Source: Amylibacter marinus | GTDB lineage: Bacteria > Pseudomonadota > Alphaproteobacteria > Rhodobacterales > Rhodobacteraceae | Reading direction: 5' to 3' | Assembly (NCBI RefSeq): GCF_030160015.1 | Contig: NZ_BSNN01000008.1 | Coordinates: 62,001-126,000, forward strand | Length of the DNA: 64,000 bases | In this document: positions 28,428 to 56,523 of the stretch, one piece after another | Layout of the letters: each line of letters begins with the position of its first letter | Position numbering within the stretch: position 1 is the stretch's first letter | Notes under the pieces: model-generated | What the model was told of the DNA's origin: nothing | The model's input: only the letters and a program-made list of their open reading frames with translations | Databases searched by the model: none | Position numbers and translations under genes: made by a program

Positions 28428-29195
28428 ATGACCTTAGACATTACCATAATCCCCTGTTTGTCCGACAACTATGCCTATCTGCTTCGCTGTTGCGATACAA
28501 ATGAGGTGGCGGTGGTGGATGTGCCCGCGGCGGGCCCGATTTTAGCAGAGTTAAGGCGCCAAAAACTGACACTGAGACAGATATTCATAACCCATCACCA
28601 CGCTGACCACATTGATGGTGTGGCCGAAGTGGTTGCAAAAACAGGGGCCCGTGTGATTGGGGCGATGGCCGATGCCCATCGCCTGCCGCCATTGGATCAT
28701 GCACTAAAGGATGGCGATACCCTTATGCTTGGGACCTGCAAGGCGGAGGTATTTGATGTTTATGGGCATACCATCGGGCATATTGCATTTCATTTTCCAA
28801 CCGAGCGCGCAGTTTTCAGCGCCGACAGCCTAATGGCACTGGGCTGTGGGCGGGTAAATGAGGGCACCCATGATCAAATGTGGCAGACACTGTTGAAATT
28901 TAAGGCACTGCCTACGGATACATTGGTTTATTCGGGGCATGAATATACCGCCAGTAACGCAAAATTTGCGCTGAGTGTTGATCCACAAAACTCCGATCTG
29001 ATTGCGCGCGCGGCAGAAATAACGGCCACCCGGGCAAGGGGTGAATTTTGTGTCCCCTCATCCATGGCACTAGAGTTGGCCACAAATCCGTTTTTGCGCG
29101 CCGATACCCCCACACTAAAGGCGGCAATCGGTATGGCAGAGCAAAGCGATGCCGCCTGTTTCAGCGCATTGCGCACCGCCAAGGATAACTTCTGA
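28428..29195 (+). CDS. gloB: Hydroxyacylglutathione hydrolase (glyoxalase II)
   Basis: 255 residues, metallo-beta-lactamase fold. The motif [10 protein letters not shown] gives metal ligands His56, His58, Asp60 and His61; [12 protein letters not shown] and [14 protein letters not shown] carry further ligands and glutathione contacts. It hydrolyses S-lactoylglutathione to lactate and glutathione in methylglyoxal detoxification. The stop overlaps the next start by one base (TGATG). Confidence 0.94.
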
Positions 29196-29974
29196 TGGGT
29201 CTTTCAAATTGGTTTCCCCAATCCCCCGCCGCCGAGGTCCAATCTGGCACTCTTCAGGTTGGCTGGATGTTAACCGAAACCAAGGCAGGCATTGTCTATT
29301 ACCCGCCAGAGCGGGTTCGCTCGGCCAGTATGAATAAGGGACATGCGAAATCTGCCTCTAGATGCCCTGCCATTATTGATATGGAAAGCCGCCATTTTGT
29401 TGTTCGTGTGCCCTTTGATTTACACCTGCGCTTTAGCCGCGATAAATCGGGCAAACCAGGGTTGCGGAATATTCTGGGCGATAAATCCCCAGTACGACCA
29501 TCCATTTTAAACAAGGTCTTGCACGTGACCAAAGAAAGTGAGTGGCGATACGCAGACAAGCCGTCAATTCAGGTCAGCCTACCCTATCTGTTTATTGCAG
29601 ACGAACCCACCTATATGACACAGCTTGATGCCTTTATGCATTATCGCAAAACGCCCCTACCAGGGACAATATTTGGTGGCCGCTTTCCGATCGATGTCTG
29701 GCCGCGCCCCTTGATGTGGGCCTTTGAGTGGCACGACATACAAGAGGATCTCATTTTGAAGCGCGGCGATCCGTGGTTTTATTTGAAATTTGAAACCACC
29801 CCCCAAAACCGGCCCGTTTCGCTGGTCGAGGCCACATCAACACCAGAACTTGAGGCCTATCTCAGGCATCTTTCGTCGGCAGTAAACTATGTTAACCAAT
29901 CGTTTTCATTGTTTAAAGAGGCGAAAAAAGTGCGCCCCGCGCAACTGTTAGTCCCTAAAAAACACACAAAATAG
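29195..29974 (+). CDS. Unrecognised conserved-looking protein between gloB and clpA
   Basis: 259 residues, not assigned to any family I recognise. No signal peptide or transmembrane helix is visible. It is rich in Trp, Tyr, Phe and Pro, with blocks such as MESRHFVVRVPFDLHLRF, RYADKPSIQVSLPYLF and GGRFPIDVWPRPLMWAFEW that read like a folded beta-rich enzyme or binding domain. The ATG overlaps the gloB stop by one base, so it is translationally coupled to gloB and clearly real. Function unknown. Confidence 0.8.
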   Translation: MGLSNWFPQSPAAEVQSGTLQVGWMLTETKAGIVYYPPERVRSASMNKGHAKSASRCPAIIDMESRHFVVRVPFDLHLRFSRDKSGKPGLRNILGDKSPVRPSILNKVLHVTKESEWRYADKPSIQVSLPYLFIADEPTYMTQLDAFMHYRKTPLPGTIFGGRFPIDVWPRPLMWAFEWHDIQEDLILKRGDPWFYLKFETTPQNRPVSLVEATSTPELEAYLRHLSSAVNYVNQSFSLFKEAKKVRPAQLLVPKKHTK

Positions 29975-32456: not shown

Positions 32457-32531
32457 ACGCCCTAAGTGTGTGTATTTTCACTTGCAGTTTATTTTTTTCC
32501 CCCTAGCGTGATGCATGGGGAAACGAAATTT

Positions 32532-33776
32532 ATGACTTTGAAGCAAACATTTTTACAGCAGCTCTTCCTGTGGCTGGAAACTGGTACGCAGGATTTTACC
32601 GGCCATACACGGCGGCGTTTGATTGTGATCAATGCCCTAATGACGGTTATCCCATCGCTGGCATTCATTTACGTTGTTGTCCTGTCGATAATTGATTTCT
32701 CAGGGTTCCGTATGCCCATTCTGTTTATTACATTGGGTGCACCGCTGTTCTTAATTACCCCGTTTTTATGGCAAATCAGCGTCCGTACTGGCACCATTTT
32801 CAACCTATGCTATTGGTTGGTGTTCAATCTGATCTTATCCATGCTATTGGGGCGCGAAAGCGGCATCCACCTATTGTTTTTGGCCGGCACAACTATGTCG
32901 ATATTGATTTTTGGGGTGCGCTTTAATTTGATGTCTTTGATATCACTCTCTTCTGGGGTGGTTTGTTACTCTGCCGCACAGAAGCTTTTCATCGACCACT
33001 CAGCAGAGTTTGTAACGGCCAGCCCCGAGTCAATCGGTTTAGTCTTTTATCTTAGTACCTTCATCTACGTGATGGTCAATTTTTGCATTATCTCTTATGC
33101 CTTTGCACAGGCCCATCGCGCCGAGCGGCTATTGGAAACAGAATATGCCTATTCCGAGGGGTTGTTGAATTCAATGATGCCCCGCGCAATTGCAGATCAG
33201 CTGAAAACCGATCGTCAAAAAGTGATTGCGGAATCCTACGACGAGGCCAGCATTCTCTTTGCTGATCTAGCAGGCTTTACCGATCGTGCATCCCGCTCTA
33301 CCCCAACCGAGGTGGTTAATTTTCTAAATCTGTTGTTCACACGCTTTGACCAACTGGCGGTAATCCATGGGGTCGAAAAAATTAAAACCCTAGGCGACAG
33401 CTATATGGCGGCGGGTGGTCTACCACGACGCCAAGCGGATCACGCAGAAAGAATTGCCAACTTTGCCCTAGATGTGATCCAAGCCGCAGAGACCCTATCT
33501 GAAAGTATCGATGAAAAGTTTCAGCTGCGTGTAGGGTTCCATTCTGGCCCAGTGGTTGCAGGGGTTATCGGTGCCGAGAAACCGTTCTATGATGTATGGG
33601 GCGATACCGTGAATACCGCAGAGCGGTTGGAAAATTTGGCCGAGGTCGGCAGAGTGCAGGTAACCTATGCCACCAAGGTGAAATTGGAGCACAAATTCAA
33701 TTTTGAAAAGCGTGGAAACATGATGATGAAGGGCAAAGGCGAGCAAGAGGTTTGGTACCTACTCGGCCCCAAATAA
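32532..33776 (+). CDS. Membrane-bound class III adenylate cyclase
   Basis: 414 residues from the ATG at 32532, which has GGGGAAACG upstream (an ATG at 32511 is in frame but poorly placed). Five or six hydrophobic helices fill about 28-205; a class III cyclase domain follows at about 235-405 with the metal site ILFADLAGFT, the substrate loop EKIKTLGDSYMA, and FYDVWGDTVNTAERLE. The Lys and Asp at the base-selecting positions point to ATP rather than GTP. The membrane part has no recognised sensor motif. The product cAMP would act through a CRP-like protein elsewhere. Confidence 0.88.
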   Translation: MTLKQTFLQQLFLWLETGTQDFTGHTRRRLIVINALMTVIPSLAFIYVVVLSIIDFSGFRMPILFITLGAPLFLITPFLWQISVRTGTIFNLCYWLVFNLILSMLLGRESGIHLLFLAGTTMSILIFGVRFNLMSLISLSSGVVCYSAAQKLFIDHSAEFVTASPESIGLVFYLSTFIYVMVNFCIISYAFAQAHRAERLLETEYAYSEGLLNSMMPRAIADQLKTDRQKVIAESYDEASILFADLAGFTDRASRSTPTEVVNFLNLLFTRFDQLAVIHGVEKIKTLGDSYMAAGGLPRRQADHAERIANFALDVIQAAETLSESIDEKFQLRVGFHSGPVVAGVIGAEKPFYDVWGDTVNTAERLENLAEVGRVQVTYATKVKLEHKFNFEKRGNMMMKGKGEQEVWYLLGPK

Positions 33777-33790
33777 CGCCGATCATAAAT

Positions 33791-35704
33791 CTATTTCTCT
33801 GTGAACTTCAGCTCGATGCGACGATTGATGGCATAGGCCTCTGGTGTTTCAGCATCACTTAGAGGCTGGAACTCTCCAAACCCGTTCGCTGCCAAACGAT
33901 CCGCGGGAATTCCCTGTTCATTGATTAAATACCGCACCACAGATAATGCGCGTGCTTGGCTTAATTCCCAATTGTCATTAAACGCCCCGCCTGCGGATAA
34001 GGGTGTGCTATCGGTGTGGCCGTCCACGCGCAAAATCCAATCTATTTCGCGCGGGATCTGATCGGCAACTTGATGAATAATGCTGGCCACATTTCGAATT
34101 TCCGCCTGTCCCCCGGCCCCCAGATTTGCTGATCCTGGCGCGAATAGTACTTCGGATGAGAAAACAAACCTGTCCCCGACAATTCGAACGCCTTCGCGCC
34201 CTTCCATAATTTCGCGTAGCCGGCCAAAAAACTCTGATCTGAATTTGCGCAGATCATTAGCCTCGGCCGCAAGGCGCTCTTTTTCACGCTCTTCTAGTTT
34301 TGCGCGTTTCTTCTGTTCTGCGGCCACCCTTGCAAGGGCGGCATTCAGGTTCTTGCCAAGGTTTTGCAATTGAACCTGCGATTGTTGATCCGCCACCGCA
34401 GAGGCATCCAGCAAACCCTGTAGATCATCCAATTGCTTTTGTAGCTCCTCGGTTTGGGCATTTAACAGCGCCACTTTGCGCAGGCTATCTGCGGAAACCG
34501 CCTGTTCTTGTGCCAGCATATCATTTGCAATGGCCAACAATGTTGCGTTTTTCTGGGCCTCGGTTTGGTCAATCTGCTCGGCAATTATCTTCTCATTGGC
34601 CAGCTCTGCCGCGGCTAATAACGTTAGCGTTTCTTCGGCCTCGCGACGCTGGGCCTCTAGCGCCAATGTCATCGCAGATAATTCCGTATCCGCCGCAAGC
34701 AAACGTTGGCGCAGGGCCTCGGCGGCGGCACTTTCTAGCAGTTGTTCTTTTTGCGCATCACTTAGGGCTTGCTCAACATCCCGCAACTGGTCGCTTTGCA
34801 ATTTATCACGTGATTGCAGATCCGCAATCAGCGCCTCTAGCGCTTGACGCTTGGCCAGATCCAGTGCCGCGGATTGTGCGTTGGCATCCAGCTTGGCCGT
34901 TAGATCCGCCATTTCCGCTTCTGTCGTCTGTTTCGCCGCCTCTGCGGCCAATAACAATGCCATGGTTTCCTCGGCCTGCTTTCGCTGAGCCTCCATCGCA
35001 AGGGTCATGGCCGATAAGGCCGCACCGGAATCCGATAACCGTTGTTGCAACGCTTGCGCCGCTGCTTGTTCCAACACTCTGGCTTGCTCCAATTCGCTAA
35101 GCTCTTGGCGTGTGGCAGCAAGCTGTTGTTCGCTAAATGCCCCCGAGGCCTCTAGATCTGCGATCAAGGATTCCATTGCCTCGCGCTTGGCCGCCGCTAA
35201 ACGGGCCTGCTCTGCCTGTAAATCAATTTCATCACGCGCAGATGCCAGTGCCAGTTCAACTGCTTCTTTTTCGCTCAGTACGGCTTGGTTTTCCTGTTCT
35301 AGCGTCTCTTTGGTCACCAGCAGGGCCGCGATCTGCGTTTCAAACTCGCTTAATCTTTCGGCCTGTGTGTTTGACTTGTCGGTCAGCGCTAGAATTGTGG
35401 ACAGTTGCGATGCCACCTGCGCCTGGGCCGCATCTAACGCATTTTGAGAACTGGACAAAGAAGCCTGTAGCGAGCTGACCCTTTGTTGTTCTAAACCTAG
35501 CGCTTCTGCCAATCCGGACAGCTCGATCGTTAGATCATCCAATGCGTTGCTTTGGTCAGAAATGGTTTCGCGTAGGGTAAATTGCACGATCATAAAAATC
35601 GACAGCACGAAGAACAATATCAACAGCAACGCGGTCATTGCATCCACAAATCCCGGCCAGATGCTGGCCTCGAACCGGTTTCCTGCGCGACGCCGAATTG
35701 CCAT
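33791..35704 (-). CDS. MotB/OmpA-like protein with long coiled-coil stalk
   Basis: 637 residues. One N-terminal transmembrane helix (about 19-43) contains Asp21 in PGFVDAMTALLLILFF, matching the proton-carrying Asp of MotB/ZorB-type stators. Residues about 45-490 are a continuous Ala/Gln/Glu/Leu-rich coiled coil in which units 170-282 and 283-395 are visibly duplicated. Residues about 505-635 are an OmpA/MotB peptidoglycan-binding domain (VDGHTDSTPLS, NWELSQARA, NRRIELKF). It would anchor a membrane channel to the wall through a stalk far longer than in MotB. It starts within the stop of the MotA-like gene (TAATG). Function unknown; not flagellar by context. Confidence 0.88.
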   Translation of the reverse strand: MAIRRRAGNRFEASIWPGFVDAMTALLLILFFVLSIFMIVQFTLRETISDQSNALDDLTIELSGLAEALGLEQQRVSSLQASLSSSQNALDAAQAQVASQLSTILALTDKSNTQAERLSEFETQIAALLVTKETLEQENQAVLSEKEAVELALASARDEIDLQAEQARLAAAKREAMESLIADLEASGAFSEQQLAATRQELSELEQARVLEQAAAQALQQRLSDSGAALSAMTLAMEAQRKQAEETMALLLAAEAAKQTTEAEMADLTAKLDANAQSAALDLAKRQALEALIADLQSRDKLQSDQLRDVEQALSDAQKEQLLESAAAEALRQRLLAADTELSAMTLALEAQRREAEETLTLLAAAELANEKIIAEQIDQTEAQKNATLLAIANDMLAQEQAVSADSLRKVALLNAQTEELQKQLDDLQGLLDASAVADQQSQVQLQNLGKNLNAALARVAAEQKKRAKLEEREKERLAAEANDLRKFRSEFFGRLREIMEGREGVRIVGDRFVFSSEVLFAPGSANLGAGGQAEIRNVASIIHQVADQIPREIDWILRVDGHTDSTPLSAGGAFNDNWELSQARALSVVRYLINEQGIPADRLAANGFGEFQPLSDAETPEAYAINRRIELKFTEK

Positions 35705-36846
35705 TACTTACCCTTTGCCACGGCCGTTATCGCCTGTGTCAACGCAGAGATATCAGTTCGTAGATCATTGGTTGAGCTGGCGCGCCCATCTGACATCTCT
35801 TCTAGGATACGCAGCAATTGGGTGTCGATATTCCGCATGCGCATGCGGGTTTCCGCATCCAAAATACCGTCGCCTTCGCTTTGCATACGGGCTAGTGCAT
35901 CAACAATTTGGTTTTGCCCCGATGCCAAATCTTGTAGCGAACGGGTGTTTTCCTCGTAAAGCGCAGAGGTGTGTTGAATGTGGCGTTCGACTGTGACCGC
36001 CAGCTGATCCATCCGACCCGCGGATTGGGCCAGAATTTCCTGCATGTTTTCCATATTCAAACTGGCGTTTTGGAACATATGCGAGCCAGCCAGATCACCA
36101 CTCCCCTCGCCGCCACCAGACGTGATTTTGGTAATCGAGGACAACCAATCCTCTAGTTCAAGGTAAAATCTATTTTGCCCACGCCCCGCAAACAAATCCA
36201 ACAGGCCTACAACCAAAGACCCCGCCAAACCTAACAGAGATGACCCAAAGGCTGTCCCCATGCCCCCCAACTGTGCCTCAAGCCCATGCATCAGGTTTTC
36301 AAAAACATTGGCACCAGATTGCCCATCTTGCGGGGCAAGGGATCGAATAGTGTCGACCACCGCAGGTACAGTGGTCGCCAACCCATAAAATGTTCCCAAT
36401 AGTCCAAGGAAAATCAACAGGTTGATGATGTAGCGAGTGATTTCGCGCCCCTCATCAAGGCGCGTGGCTGCACTATCCAGAATGGATTGCATCGAGGTAG
36501 AGGTCAGCGCATGACGCGCGCCCGCCTCGGACAGCAAAGCCGCCAAAGAGGCCAGCAATTTGGGCGGTTGTACCAAATTATGCCCAACCCGATCCAGCGC
36601 AAACCCTTCGGCCCATGTAACACATTTCACCAGTGCAAAGACCTGTGTAAAGCAGGAAATCAACCCACCTACGAACACCAGAACTATAAAGCCGTTTAAA
36701 TAGGGTGAAGATAGGAAAATACCAGCAAGTGCTGGATAGGCCAGCACTGCCCCAACCCCAACCACGATAACGATCAAAAACATCGTCAGAATTTGATTAA
36801 CTGGTTGTGTGAATTGATATCTCAGCGAGGCTTCGGTATTTACCAT
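35704..36846 (-). CDS. MotA/TolQ/ExbB-like proton channel protein
   Basis: 380 residues from the ATG at 36846; a TTG at 36906 is in frame but unlikely. Four hydrophobic helices at about 18-45, 51-73, 138-160 and 193-220; the last two hold LLGTFYGL and GGMGTAFGSSLLGLAGSLVVGLLD, the MotA/ExbB channel core. A 150-residue helical cytoplasmic C-terminus follows. It forms a stator-like complex with the MotB/OmpA-like protein encoded next. TolQ or ExbB proper would be shorter and sit with TolR/ExbD. Divergent from the SPFH gene across 159 bp. Confidence 0.87.
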   Translation of the reverse strand: MVNTEASLRYQFTQPVNQILTMFLIVIVVGVGAVLAYPALAGIFLSSPYLNGFIVLVFVGGLISCFTQVFALVKCVTWAEGFALDRVGHNLVQPPKLLASLAALLSEAGARHALTSTSMQSILDSAATRLDEGREITRYIINLLIFLGLLGTFYGLATTVPAVVDTIRSLAPQDGQSGANVFENLMHGLEAQLGGMGTAFGSSLLGLAGSLVVGLLDLFAGRGQNRFYLELEDWLSSITKITSGGGEGSGDLAGSHMFQNASLNMENMQEILAQSAGRMDQLAVTVERHIQHTSALYEENTRSLQDLASGQNQIVDALARMQSEGDGILDAETRMRMRNIDTQLLRILEEMSDGRASSTNDLRTDISALTQAITAVAKGK

Positions 36847-37005: not shown

Positions 37006-37941
37006 ATGGACACGATTATCGGATTCGGAGCCACCTCACTGGTGCTGCTTTTCTTTGCTCTTATTTTGGTTTTCATGGCCGTGCGCTCTGTTCCCCAAGG
37101 CGAAAATTGGACGCTAGAGCGCTTTGGCCGCTATACTCGCACCTTGATGCCGGGTTTAAATTTTATCGTACCATTTATTGATAAGGTCGGCGCCAAGATC
37201 AACATGATGGAAACCGTATTAGATATCGACAGCCAAGAGGTGATCACCAAGGATAACGCCATGGTTATGACCGATGCGGTGACATTTTTTCAGGTCATCA
37301 ATGCCTCTAGTGCCGCATATGAGGTACGTGATCTATACCGCGCATTGTCCAATCTAACCCAGACCAACATTCGTGCTGTGGTGGGTAACATGGATTTGGA
37401 TGAAAGCTTGTCCAACCGCGATGTCATCAATTCAAAACTGCTAAGCGTGATCGACGAGGCCGCGTCACCGTGGGGCGTAAAGGTTACACGTGTTGAAATC
37501 AAAGACCTGTCCCCACCCGAGGATATTAACGAGGCGATGGCACGCCAGATGAAGGCAGAGCGCGGGAAACGTGCAGAAATTCTAACCGCCGAGGGTCACA
37601 AGCAATCTGCGATTTTGCAGGCCGAGGGTGAGAAGGAAAGCCAAGTTCGCGAGGCCGAGGGCCGCCGCGCAGCGGCATTCCTAGATGCCGAGGCCCGCGA
37701 GCGCGCCGCCGAGGCCGAGGCCCTTGCCACCACCATGGTTTCCGAGGCGATTGCCAAGGGCGATGTACAGGCGATCAACTACTTTGTTGCGCAGAAATAC
37801 ACCGATGCTCTGCGCGATGTAGCCGCCAGCCCAAGCGCCAAAACCGTGATGATCCCACTAGAGGCGTCTAGCCTGATCGGATCAATTGGCGGCATCGCCG
37901 ATATCGCCAAGGCCGTAACAGACGCCAAAGATGGTAAATAG
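37006..37941 (+). CDS. SPFH/Band 7 domain protein (QmcA/stomatin-like)
   Basis: 311 residues with one N-terminal transmembrane helix (about 4-27), the SPFH domain (VPQGENWTLERFGRYTRTLMPGLNFIVPFID onward) and a long Ala/Glu-rich coiled coil at about 185-250 containing repeated AEG blocks. Such proteins form large membrane-attached cages or scaffolds in ordered lipid zones and associate with FtsH or NfeD partners. GGAG precedes the ATG. The NfeD gene follows 16 bp later, the usual operon partner. Confidence 0.93.
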   Translation: MDTIIGFGATSLVLLFFALILVFMAVRSVPQGENWTLERFGRYTRTLMPGLNFIVPFIDKVGAKINMMETVLDIDSQEVITKDNAMVMTDAVTFFQVINASSAAYEVRDLYRALSNLTQTNIRAVVGNMDLDESLSNRDVINSKLLSVIDEAASPWGVKVTRVEIKDLSPPEDINEAMARQMKAERGKRAEILTAEGHKQSAILQAEGEKESQVREAEGRRAAAFLDAEARERAAEAEALATTMVSEAIAKGDVQAINYFVAQKYTDALRDVAASPSAKTVMIPLEASSLIGSIGGIADIAKAVTDAKDGK

Positions 37942-37957
37942 AGGAGCGCTACAGTAG

Positions 37958-38422
37958 ATGCTTGATTTTTTAAACGGTATATCACCTTGGTGGTGGCTGG
38001 CATTGGCGCTCGCATTGGGGGCGCTGGAGATGGCTACATTTTCGCTGTTCCTGATTTGGCCTGCGGTCTCTGCGCTGATCATGGCGGTCTTGCTGGCCTT
38101 GGTGCCTGATATGTCGCCTGCTTCGCAGATTTCGATATTTGCAACGGTTGCCATTCTTTCGACAATTGTTGGGCGTTTTCTCTTTCTGCGTTACGGCGAC
38201 GGGGGCGGGACAGATAACCAAGACCTGAACAATCGCGGTGCGCGTTTCATTGGCCGTGATGCCAAGGTTTTAGAATTTTCCAACGGCCACGGTGTGGTGG
38301 AAATCGAGGGCATGCGTTGGCGGGCCCAATGGAACCCCAATGAAGTATCAGCGGTAGATGAGCAGGTGCGCATCACCCATGCAAATGGGTTGCTATTATC
38401 GGTGGAACCGATCGCTAGCTAG
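37958..38422 (+). CDS. NfeD family membrane protein
   Basis: 154 residues: two or three hydrophobic helices in the first 70 residues (LALALALGALEMATFSLFLIWPAVSALIMAVL) and a C-terminal OB-fold at about 85-150 (GRDAKVLEFSNGHGVVEIEGMRWRAQW). This is the short NfeD1b form without the peptidase domain that pairs with SPFH proteins. Its stop overlaps that of the convergent ChaC gene over 8 bp (CTAGCTAG). Confidence 0.9.
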   Translation: MLDFLNGISPWWWLALALALGALEMATFSLFLIWPAVSALIMAVLLALVPDMSPASQISIFATVAILSTIVGRFLFLRYGDGGGTDNQDLNNRGARFIGRDAKVLEFSNGHGVVEIEGMRWRAQWNPNEVSAVDEQVRITHANGLLLSVEPIAS

Positions 38423-53755: not shown

Positions 53756-54158
53756 CGCTCTTACCCCCCCAAATCCGATAACGCGTTCGGATATTTCCCG
53801 TGTTGTTAAGTCATTTTATTCCAAGGTAAGAACAGACCCCCAACTAAGCGCGGTATTTGCTCAGTCCATTCCTGCAGATCATTGGCCTGCGCATGAAGAT
53901 AAAATCACAGATTTTTGGGCCAACGCGATCCTGCAAGAACGCAGATATTCCGGCAACCCTTTACAGGTCCACAGGGCTCAAGGGCATATCCAGCCAGAAC
54001 ATTTCGCGATATGGCTTGACCTGTTCGATCAAACCTTGGCTGAAATCCTACCCAGCCAACATGCTGCGGCATTTTCAAAATTGGCCCATCGCATTGGCGC
54101 CAGCCTGCGCATGGGAATGGAACCACCGAAGGCGCAGGGAATTCCTAGCCTAGGTTAA
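53748..54158 (+). CDS. Group III truncated haemoglobin
   Basis: 136 residues with the trHbIII pattern: FYSKVRTDPQLSAVF in the N-terminal helices, DHWPAHEDKITDFWANAIL, the RRYSGNP turn, and QVHRAQGHIQPEHFAIWLDLF where a conserved His is the likely haem ligand. Group III globins of this type (Campylobacter Ctb) are NO-inducible and bind O2/NO. Coupled to the small membrane protein gene and under the predicted NsrR operator. Confidence 0.9.
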   Translation: MSSALTPPNPITRSDISRVVKSFYSKVRTDPQLSAVFAQSIPADHWPAHEDKITDFWANAILQERRYSGNPLQVHRAQGHIQPEHFAIWLDLFDQTLAEILPSQHAAAFSKLAHRIGASLRMGMEPPKAQGIPSLG

Positions 54159-55150
54159 CCGCCCCTCGGGAATAACCCTGTCAATGCACTGGAAATTACG
54201 GCCGTAACGCGCGGTTTTTGTTCTGGACTAAAGGCCATCGGGCGGCAAACCTCCATGGTGGCAATGCCGACCCGCACGGTTAATGCGCCATTGATCACGC
54301 CCTCGCCGAATCTTCTGGAAATTTTGGATAACACTCCACCACCTGCAAGGCTGGTAATCATATCATCCCCAATCGCCACCGCACCCGTCGCCAGTAAATG
54401 CGTAAAGACCATACGAAACAGCCGCCAAGATCCCAAAACCCCCGCCCGTGCTCCATAGATCTCTGAAATGCGGCGAATCATGCGCATATTGGTGGTTAGG
54501 GCAGCCAAAACATCCAACAATGCTAGCGGCACTATGATAGTGGCCCCAGCCACCGTTTTGGCCGCCGCTTCAATCTCGCCAAGTGCCGCGCGATCCAACG
54601 GGGCCACCAACTCCGTCTCGATATGCAAAAGCGCCGCTGATGCATCTAAATGCTCGTCTTTTCGCTCTTTATACTTGGCAATATGCCACTCCATTTCACC
54701 GCGGTGACGCATCGATTTTACAAGCAACGCCCCAAATTTCTGTGCCCCATCGCGGCTTTCGTTCTGGTGGGCATGCCTGGCCTTATCGCGCAAATCATCT
54801 ACATGCCTCAATCGAAGATACCCGCGTAATTCTCCCCAGAAAAACAGCAACGCGCAGGCCACTAAAACACCCAACAGCACCACTCCAAACCGGCCAAGCC
54901 AAATATTACGCGCCATCAACCCCGCAACGAAATCCCAAAATGCTAAAGATAGGGCAAACCCGATAAATATCCCCAACACCCAAAGAAACACGCGCATCGC
55001 CAAGGATCTCCGAGCAGAAACCACATGGCTGGCGCGGATCATCGCGGGGGCATCGGCTATGCGGTCCTCGATTACGGGAGCATCTGCGGGTGACAATTCG
55101 GTCTCATCCGCTGAAAGGATTACTGGGCGTTTTTGTGACACTTCACTCAT
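54155..55150 (-). CDS. TIGR01620/YcjF-like (DUF697) membrane protein
   Basis: 331 residues with two membrane helices at about 52-74 and 84-110 (VFLWVLGIFIGFALSLAFWDFVAG and LGRFGVVLLGVLVACALLFFWGE) and a C-terminal DUF697-type hydrophobic domain. E. coli YcjF belongs to the phage-shock regulon. The ATG overlaps the YcjX stop by 4 bp. Function unknown; the pair is thought to act at the inner membrane. Confidence 0.88.
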   Translation of the reverse strand: MSEVSQKRPVILSADETELSPADAPVIEDRIADAPAMIRASHVVSARRSLAMRVFLWVLGIFIGFALSLAFWDFVAGLMARNIWLGRFGVVLLGVLVACALLFFWGELRGYLRLRHVDDLRDKARHAHQNESRDGAQKFGALLVKSMRHRGEMEWHIAKYKERKDEHLDASAALLHIETELVAPLDRAALGEIEAAAKTVAGATIIVPLALLDVLAALTTNMRMIRRISEIYGARAGVLGSWRLFRMVFTHLLATGAVAIGDDMITSLAGGGVLSKISRRFGEGVINGALTVRVGIATMEVCRPMAFSPEQKPRVTAVISSALTGLFPRGG

Positions 55151-56523
55151 TGCAATTTGTCCCCGATCAGGAATTCAATGGCGCGATCCAAGCGTATATG
55201 CGGTGGGCCATCACCCGCGCGTAAATTGTTTTTGGCTGGCAGAAAACGCGTTGCTTGATACTCTGCGTTCAGCCATGCGGCCTGGTCTGGATCAGCTAGC
55301 AATACTTGTTTGGGATCTTCGGGTAATTCCCCTGCATAGATCACCGCCTGTTTTCCCGTTTCCATCACACGGCCGCGCACGGCATCTAGTGTCTGCCCTT
55401 GATGCTGAATGCGTTGTTCCACGGTGGTGCGCAGCGCGGCCAAGGCGAGGCTTTGGGTTTGAGCGCCGCTGAATTCTGCGCGATCCGATGCATCCGTCAA
55501 CAATGCGTCGGTGATGCGCGACATGGCGCCATGTTGGGAATGATGCAAATGATCCGCCTTGGTGGCTGCAAACAATATTCGATCAACCGAGCGACCAAAC
55601 AAAAAAGAAAACATCCCGTTTTTCCCCACCTTAAAACACGTTAGTACATCCACCATGGTTTGGCGCAGATCATGCACCGCCGCAGGCCCCGAGGCCATGG
55701 CACCCAAAACATCCATCAACACAACTTGGCGATCAATTCCCGCTAGATGATCTCTGAAAAATGGCTTGATCACACGCGATTTATAGCTCTCGAACCTGCG
55801 CTCGAATGCATGATACAATGATCCCTTTTTCCCGCCACCTAACAGCGGCGCAAAGGTCAACACGGGCGAGCCCTCTAGCTCGGCAGGTAACAAAAAGCGT
55901 CCCGGGCTACAGGACGCTAGCCCTGCATCATGACTATGCCGCAGATAATCGGTGTAGGCGCCGGCGACTGTCTGGGCCATAGTTTCGTCCAAGGGGGCGT
56001 CTGGATCAATTTCCAACTGGCGCCATGCTTGGCTGAATTTCGCGCGGCGCGTTGATTTGGCCTGCTCAATCGCCTGTTGAGACCATTGCTGGTAGCTTTG
56101 TTTCAGCATCGGTAAATCCAGCAGCCATTCGCCAGGATAGTCGACAATATCCAAATGTACTAAATGTGTGCGGCGCATCCCTGAGAAAAACCCCTGAGGG
56201 TGGATTTTGAAGGTCAGGCGTAACTGGCTGATGGCGCGGGTGGATTGCGGCCATTTGGGGGCCTCATTGGTGCCCAATATATCGCCAAGATGCTGTTCGT
56301 AGGCAAATCTCGGCAGGGTATCATTCGGTTGTGGACGCAGGTAAACACCCGCTAGAGAACCACGTGCAATAGCAGGCACCTGTGTCAGGCGACCCCGTTC
56401 CAGAAGATTGGCAATCAGGCTGGTGATAAATACGGTTTTGCCCGCCCGCGATAGGCCCGTGACACCCAGCCGTATCGTGGTTTCAAACATGCGCTCTTGC
56501 GCGTTCTCCAATATATTCTGCAC
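55147..56523 (-). CDS. YcjX family P-loop GTPase-like protein (DUF463)
   Basis: 458 residues from the GTG at 56523, which has AAGGAAG at proper spacing. P-loop GLSRAGKT at 23-30, HLDIVDYPGEWLLDL as the switch II-like DxPG motif, and VLMDVLGAMASGPAAVHDLRQTM further on. E. coli YcjX is a dynamin-like GTPase of the Psp response. No psp genes adjoin here, only the TIGR01620 partner. Confidence 0.92.
   Translation of the reverse strand: MQNILENAQERMFETTIRLGVTGLSRAGKTVFITSLIANLLERGRLTQVPAIARGSLAGVYLRPQPNDTLPRFAYEQHLGDILGTNEAPKWPQSTRAISQLRLTFKIHPQGFFSGMRRTHLVHLDIVDYPGEWLLDLPMLKQSYQQWSQQAIEQAKSTRRAKFSQAWRQLEIDPDAPLDETMAQTVAGAYTDYLRHSHDAGLASCSPGRFLLPAELEGSPVLTFAPLLGGGKKGSLYHAFERRFESYKSRVIKPFFRDHLAGIDRQVVLMDVLGAMASGPAAVHDLRQTMVDVLTCFKVGKNGMFSFLFGRSVDRILFAATKADHLHHSQHGAMSRITDALLTDASDRAEFSGAQTQSLALAALRTTVEQRIQHQGQTLDAVRGRVMETGKQAVIYAGELPEDPKQVLLADPDQAAWLNAEYQATRFLPAKNNLRAGDGPPHIRLDRAIEFLIGDKLQ

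Follow-up and report, generated by a model that had tools for sequence, protein, structure and literature searches.

A paired channel subunit and wall-binding partner of Amylibacter marinus, a candidate ion-driven envelope motor of Alphaproteobacteria with kinship to ZorA

We analysed a stretch of 64,000 nucleotides from Amylibacter marinus (contig NZ_BSNN01000008.1, positions 62,001 to 126,000; hereafter the window, in whose numbering coordinates are given) with a focus on two adjacent genes, here called A and B. A encodes a channel subunit of the MotA/TolQ/ExbB/ZorA type, and B encodes a partner with one N-terminal membrane helix, a helical stalk and a C-terminal OmpA-type domain. We consider it somewhat probable that A and B together form a housekeeping ion-driven motor of the 5:2 type in the alphaproteobacterial envelope, which acts on the cell wall and is no flagellar stator. 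Three lines of evidence, from sequence, predicted fold and comparison with relatives, place the pair in this family of machines; the residues of its ion site and wall site are conserved, the two genes occur as a pair that is spread widely through the class, and there is no tie to the flagellar protein FlhA. In many relatives a third gene, C, lies upstream of A. Loci and genomes of the surveys are cited by our L and G numbers.

The open reading frame (ORF) of A was confirmed at 35704-36846 on the minus strand (380 amino acids from an ATG), and an in-frame TTG would lengthen it to 36906. B follows A on the minus strand at 33791-35704 and encodes 637 amino acids. An earlier note, made from the sequence alone, had proposed that the two are translationally coupled by TAATG. 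This overlap is present at 35702-35706 (minus strand), where the stop codon of A and the start codon of B have one base in common. Of 73 relatives, 65 have A and B spaced by 0 to 4 bases; the spacing is 3 bases in 44 relatives and -1, the state of the window, in 3. These relatives come from the 80 nearest named loci, nearly all of which are titled Rhodobacteraceae or kin.

B contains a single hydrophobic segment (residues 22-40) and Asp21 (in GFVDAM), the predicted ion-binding residue, whose codon was computed from the ORF to lie at 35642-35644 on the minus strand. The OmpA-type domain spans residues 520-628 (33821-34147, minus strand) and scores 63.4 bits in Pfam against a cut-off of 27.2. 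It includes D565 and R585, at positions that we take to bind peptidoglycan in OmpA and Pal, and it aligns with the solved wall domains of MotB and PomB. These features agree with the MotB-like partner of the earlier note. B is also a member of the NCBIfam family PRK09039 in its long form, NF006542, with 754.5 bits against a cut-off of 388. The entries of this family (NF006542-NF006546) carry the title 'peptidoglycan -binding protein' and give no function, partner or motor, and A is not named in them. Since a B relative of 302 amino acids passes the cut-off of NF006543 (406.6 versus 305), short forms of B belong to the same family.

The hydrophobic peaks of A lie at residues 19-37, 41-72 (two overlapping), 140-158 and 198-221. 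A carries the motifs LLGTF (T152) and GMGTAF.SS (S203) and a cytoplasmic tail of approximately residues 245-380; L147-G151, T152, G195-G197, S203 and S210 are invariant across 20 diverse A proteins. An AlphaFold2 model built from 44 sequences has a mean predicted local distance difference test score (pLDDT) of 77.9 and a predicted template modelling score (pTM) of 0.59. In this model the membrane segments are contained in helices 16-46, 48-83, 116-169 and 178-244, a single short helix (96-106) lies between the second and third of these, the tail forms helices 255-323 and 331-378, and no beta strand is present. Comparison with solved structures gave TolQ first (Z 12.5 over 188 residues at 3.5 Å), followed by ExbB (11.7), ZorA (10.5) and MotA (9.6), with alignments spanning 182-202 residues, and the 44 best rows of a Foldseek search were all ExbB, TolQ or ZorA chains. 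The four predicted membrane helices and these alignments uphold the earlier description of A as a four-helix, MotA/ExbB-like channel protein. No NCBIfam entry names A, for which that database yielded weak matches to ZorA (NF033917, 25.2 bits against a cut-off of 500) and CrcB, far under the cut-offs, and a PDB sequence search with A returned no match up to E 1. The predicted channel fold of A, the Asp of B and the Thr/Ser residues of A are the features expected of the superfamily of 5:2 ion-driven motors.

Conservation was followed in 100 pairs of A and B (that of the window and, from the surveys, 17 in L033-L052, 74 in L053-L132 and 8 in L207-L215). They were collected using the family's own sequences, and 11 loci where A was present and no B was found were excluded (L045, L047, L048, L206, L211, L075, L089, L094, L095, L100 and L122, some of the last six being short of downstream sequence). 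The ORFs at these loci were picked by homology and not by length. The Asp of the motif W-x-G-x-V-D is present in all 100 B proteins and LLG[TS] in all 100 A proteins; the second A motif, as patterned, occurs in 97. The D...R pair of the OmpA-type domain was detected by pattern in 92 B proteins and by eye in the remaining 8, so that all 100 possess a wall domain. Eight of the A proteins are only 243-313 amino acids long, with little or nothing left of the tail. Because the wall domain is constant while the cytoplasmic tail is largely or wholly missing in these eight, we would place the output of the motor at the wall. On sequence grounds, the conservation in 100 pairs rules out a chance resemblance, and it fits the ion-driven machine that the earlier note had suspected. 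No task of the pair is described in the literature searched.

To see how widely the pair is kept, we surveyed 290 alphaproteobacterial genomes of at least 95% completeness. A was found in 198 of them, as a single match in all but 11, and the A-bearing genomes include some of 0.7-1 Mb. The search among relatives found A in 47 of 61 genomes, and that of the phylum in 93 of 299, 78 inside the class and 15 outside. The outside matches comprise five strong ones (G394, G442, G457, G448 and G521; E 7e-97 to 2e-129), a middling one (G589) and nine weak ones. The strong ones are possibly horizontal transfers or misplaced genomes, and the four of their loci that were read (L207-L210) contain B and no C. 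In the class survey A and FlhA occurred together in 120 genomes, A alone in 78, FlhA alone in 45 and neither in 47 (odds ratio 1.6, Fisher p 0.07), where FlhA was counted at E <= 0.001 and 155 of the 165 matches exceed the cut-off. As judged from these genomes, A, which is tightly paired with B at the loci compared, is widely kept in the class and not tied to FlhA.

This distribution bears on the simplest alternative, that A and B are a flagellar or alternative flagellar stator. The two systems are distant kin, as MotAB and PomAB also combine a channel subunit with an OmpA-domain partner carrying a membrane Asp, and B matches flagellar models of the MotB, MotD and MotS type at 92 to 49 bits, all under the cut-offs, in addition to the solved MotB and PomB wall domains. 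A lies approximately 24 kb from flhA in G233, which calls for caution and which we take as coincidence. However, the 78 A-bearing genomes with no FlhA match include that of the window, whose only matches to the MotA_ExbB family are A itself and a TolQ-type gene on another contig. No tol, exb or flagellar family was found by Pfam among seven window neighbours, and the distance of the pair from flagellar, tol and exb genes given in the earlier note is therefore confirmed. The flagellated genomes G062 and G233 possess a separate MotA-type gene less than 4 kb from flhA. According to passages of PMC12505986, flagellar A subunits form the torque interface from four or more cytoplasmic helices, whereas the A model offers the one helix 96-106, and no plug is apparent in the models. 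Together with the distance of MotA from A in the trees described below, this leaves the stator with almost no credence, and the conservation foreseen in the earlier note is found outside flagellar loci.

The comparison with ZorAB and MotAB that the earlier note had called for was made with two trees of channel subunits. In the first (62 rows, 220 columns) A and ZorA form a joint group with support of 99/96, apart from MotA, TolQ and ExbB. The second (67 rows, 239 columns), enlarged by three ZorA rows of type I and two of doubtful identity, retained the joint group at 99/95, again far from MotA; A and two divergent relatives group at 88/96, and the branching inside the joint group is unsettled. 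Both trees carry long-branch warnings, the second bootstrap had not settled, gliding-type subunits (AglR, GldL) were not among the rows, and the sampling leans towards a close A-ZorA placement because the ZorA rows entered the first tree as matches of the A profile. Those rows stem from the weak matches outside the class (E 6e-12 to 1e-17), which have frames of 698-1117 amino acids and a small adjoining B. The label zorA was given by PADLOC to L197 and L205 (type III; 1509 and 992 bits) and by PDLC00597 to L229-L231 (293-473 bits); the other seven zorA rows were labelled by likeness and an adjoining B, the two zorX rows reach only 42-45 bits, and the tolQ, exbB and motA labels are provisional assignments by score, length, gene neighbours and background knowledge. 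Structure comparison does not single out ZorA, as TolQ and ExbB score slightly above it. With these limits, the nearest kin of A outside its own family appear to be ZorA-type proteins and not MotA or TolQ/ExbB, and ordinary flagellar stators are not where the profiles place the pair.

The kinship raises the question of an anti-phage system of the Zorya kind. The joint group in both trees speaks for it, as do PADLOC matches of ZorA1 (PDLC00597) to A at 39.1 bits over part of the model and of ZorB3 to B at 71 bits. ZorA and ZorB genes are likewise tightly paired and ZorB has a wall domain, and the Asp of ZorB (D24 or D21 in passages of PMC11890865) stands at the same place. In contrast, proteins that match ZorA models along their full length score 293 to 1509 bits, and none of 10 window neighbours matched a Zor model in PADLOC, including the effectors ZorC/D, ZorE and ZorF/G; the matches there were AAA-type ones in ClpA, which reach 129 bits, and one to a cyclase model at 41 bits. 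The architecture is also reversed: nine ZorA-type proteins measure 675-1074 amino acids with a long tail and have partners of 213-227, whereas here the tail of A is only about 135 residues and the long arm is on B. Passages of PMC12505986 describe a beta-sheet in the cytoplasmic domain of ZorA, where the A model has no strand. Finally, the kept position and wide spread of the pair are unlike those of defence genes. We therefore regard a defence role as very improbable.

Another alternative is an energiser like Ton or Tol, in which A and B would drive work at the outer membrane through C in place of TonB or TolA. A shares with TolQ and ExbB its fold (best Z 11-12.5), an LLGT-type channel helix and a small cytoplasmic domain. 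C looks secreted and proline-rich by eye, has a C-terminal OmpA-type domain (of six C-type proteins scanned with Pfam, five gave 33-45 bits and that of L046 gave no match) and matched no NCBIfam model above cut-off in the two scanned; OmpA was the only Pfam match. Its domain lacks the wall-binding Asp in eight of nine sequences inspected by eye, so C may bind something other than the wall. When called at 40 bits on the same strand upstream of A, with a profile built from L036-L044, C is present at 36 of the 46 distinct loci of the class that do not belong to the family of the window, 28 of these 46 having been picked as top matches of the class survey (9 of 13 in L036-L048, 28 of 30 in L133-L162, of which L133 and L160 duplicate L036 and L040, and L213 alone among L211-L215). 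C is absent from all seven loci of the window's family (L033-L035, L049-L052) and from L206-L210 outside the class, and the window's genome lacks it, with a best C-domain match of 30.6 bits compared to 103-128 for C in L133-L162. Moreover, C appears by eye to be cleaved, whereas TonB and TolA are membrane-anchored. In both trees A is separate from TolQ and ExbB and groups with ZorA, and B has a stalk and an OmpA-type domain where TolR and ExbD carry a short domain. We consider an energiser of this kind unlikely. In a Pfam scan confined to the seven window neighbours, no TonB or TolA gene was found.

The most variable part of the pair is the stalk of B (approximately residues 45-483; 34256-35572, minus strand), whose predicted helices are separated by low-confidence stretches at 139-145, 261-273 and 376-380. 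It was modelled from 40 sequences (mean pLDDT 75.1) with helices at 17-139, 145-260, 275-375 and 382-500, whose packing is not readable at a pTM of 0.34. The earlier note had described about 440 residues of coiled coil. The length holds, at 441 residues counted from motif to motif; coiled coil over the whole stalk does not, as only residues 46-139 show a heptad power matched by none of 2000 shuffles, while that of the other three stalk helices was reached by 356, 506 and 52 and that of 46-483 as a whole by 1. As one straight helix the stalk would measure 65 nm. As the Gram-negative periplasm is about 20 nm wide, the stalk must fold, tilt or coil up and cannot be a straight rod across it. It contains an internal duplication (residues 153-269 versus 265-381, 47% identity over 117 residues; 34562-35248, minus strand), which is largely the window's own, since 72-98% of 39 other B proteins, averaged over bins of 20 residues, have gaps opposite residues 201-300. 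Other lengthening falls mainly around residues 120-140 and 361-380, which coincide with breaks of the model or lie close to them. A strict up-and-down hairpin was also considered and seems less likely, given that the length gained by duplication is roughly that of a single helix, not of two.

Across relatives the stalk measures 110-949 residues, as judged from 95 B proteins, out of the 100, to which the motif count could be applied. The 73 B proteins compared from the nearest named loci have 472-1145 amino acids, and 40 of these proteins are shorter than that of the window; the range in L033-L052 is 302-960, with relatives of 302-346 occurring. The arm is thus typical of its surroundings, although long beside the ZorB-type proteins, and the exceptional length given in the earlier note needs this qualification. 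From these comparisons, stalk length is variable and not the essence of the machine. Such variability would suit a passive or sensing tether, which holds or senses the distance between membrane and wall with ion flow as a signal and no work done, better than a force rod. Zorya, which has a sensing role, sets a precedent. The wall domain of its ZorB is needed for defence in passages of PMC11890865. However, the ion-site Asp and LLG[TS] are kept in every pair, as expected of an energised machine, and a tether is in our view improbable.

We therefore return to the envelope motor. By analogy with MotAB, ExbBD, TolQR and ZorAB, a pentamer of A would surround a dimer of B in the inner membrane, ions, probably protons, would pass Asp21, and B would be held to peptidoglycan through its OmpA domain. 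Ion flow would rotate the A ring relative to B, and torque or shortening would travel along the helical stalk, so that the wall is strained or positioned with respect to that membrane. The secreted C, where relatives have it, as many do, might act on the periplasmic side. Several observations weigh against such a motor. A is absent from 92 of the 290 class genomes, and five loci with an A relative have no B downstream (L045, L047, L048, L206 and L211). A scores 15.9 bits with Pfam MotA_ExbB, below the cut-off of 22.9; its Z values of 10-12 fall in the range for which the tool warns that helical bundles reach it easily, and Foldseek found nothing at E <= 0.001 (best E 0.01). The range of stalk lengths is ill-suited to a precise mechanical length. 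A broader proposal is that A, B and C constitute a third widespread energised trans-envelope machine beside Tol-Pal and Ton, a housekeeping sister of Zorya from a common ancestor, and that the family of the window lost C and moved its reach into an elastic, duplicating B stalk. This we hold to be possible, if rather less than probable.

The surroundings of the pair were compared as well. The nearest named loci share a recurrent set of tyrA, extensin, DUF2125, ChaC, A, B, clpA and gloB, whose metabolic members carry provisional labels based on score, length, gene neighbours and background knowledge. ChaC was found in 58 of 62 nearest loci with 8 kb upstream and clpA in 53 of the 66 for which 6 kb of downstream sequence was available; in L056 and L115 clpA is on the upstream side. 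Genes for SPFH/Band 7 and NfeD proteins stand beside A in the window (37006-38422), in L049-L053, L059 and L112. They were considered as partners of A and B and rejected from the system, because they adjoin A in only 3 of the 62 loci with 8 kb upstream. Outside the window's family, efp and an inositol monophosphatase gene, both identified with Pfam in L036 alone, stand ahead of C and A in L036-L042 and L044; in L045 they precede A without C, and L043 has C without them. A long stalk as a replacement for C fails as a general rule, because C is missing from L207-L210, L212, L214 and L215 and the B proteins there are short as well (343-387 amino acids).

Further features were noted on the way. 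An adenylate/guanylate cyclase gene with a MASE7 domain (window 32466-33776; Pycsar cyclase match of 41 bits) is convergent with B and also adjoins B in L049, L051, L052, L058 and L059. Between gloB and clpA, window 29195-29974 encodes a protein of 259 amino acids for which neither Pfam nor NCBIfam nor PADLOC gave a match at the thresholds applied. Divergent A relatives of 444 and 563 amino acids with a weak B-like ORF upstream occur at L206:5140-8558, outside the class, and L211:6111-8636. In a genome of 0.9 Mb, G097:C2:75924-76757 (L215) holds A and a B of 356 amino acids; one TGA and one TAA were counted inside this A match, yet an ORF of 258 amino acids spans most of it. Window 54155-56523 contains a TIGR01620 family gene (282 bits), preceded by one for a 458-amino-acid protein without an NCBIfam match, which presumably resembles YcjX-type NTPases.

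The set of A, B and C is not described in passages of PMC12505986, PMC9389320, PMC5539429, PMC12864828, PMC9275681, PMC10787603, PMC10470522 and PMC11890865, and in this open-access literature the ZorA grouping of A, the upstream gene C and the elastic stalk were not found described. PMC12505986 mentions generic transporters 'with unknown function', of which A may be one; passages of PMC10470522 report that RSP_1033 (OmpA family) and RSP_1880 co-precipitated with DalA, and either may correspond to B. What was already known is B as a named NCBIfam family, and the kinship with ZorA and the C-A-B set are new as far as the open-access literature shows. Of the uncharacterised orphan in the earlier note, the part that stands is the absence of a described task in the literature searched; a gene kept in 198 of 290 genomes, often with C and with a named partner, is no orphan. 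To our knowledge, ion-driven motors of such kind are few (the flagellum, Tol, Ton, gliding and Zorya), and each of them has founded a field of research. One that is widely retained, apparently housekeeping and without a described task marks a gap in our picture of the envelope, and it does so in a class with plant symbionts and marine bacteria among its members. Its kinship with ZorA leads to a testable question on the origin of the Zorya motor, and its elastic stalk raises the question of how a motor functions with an arm whose length varies more than 8-fold.

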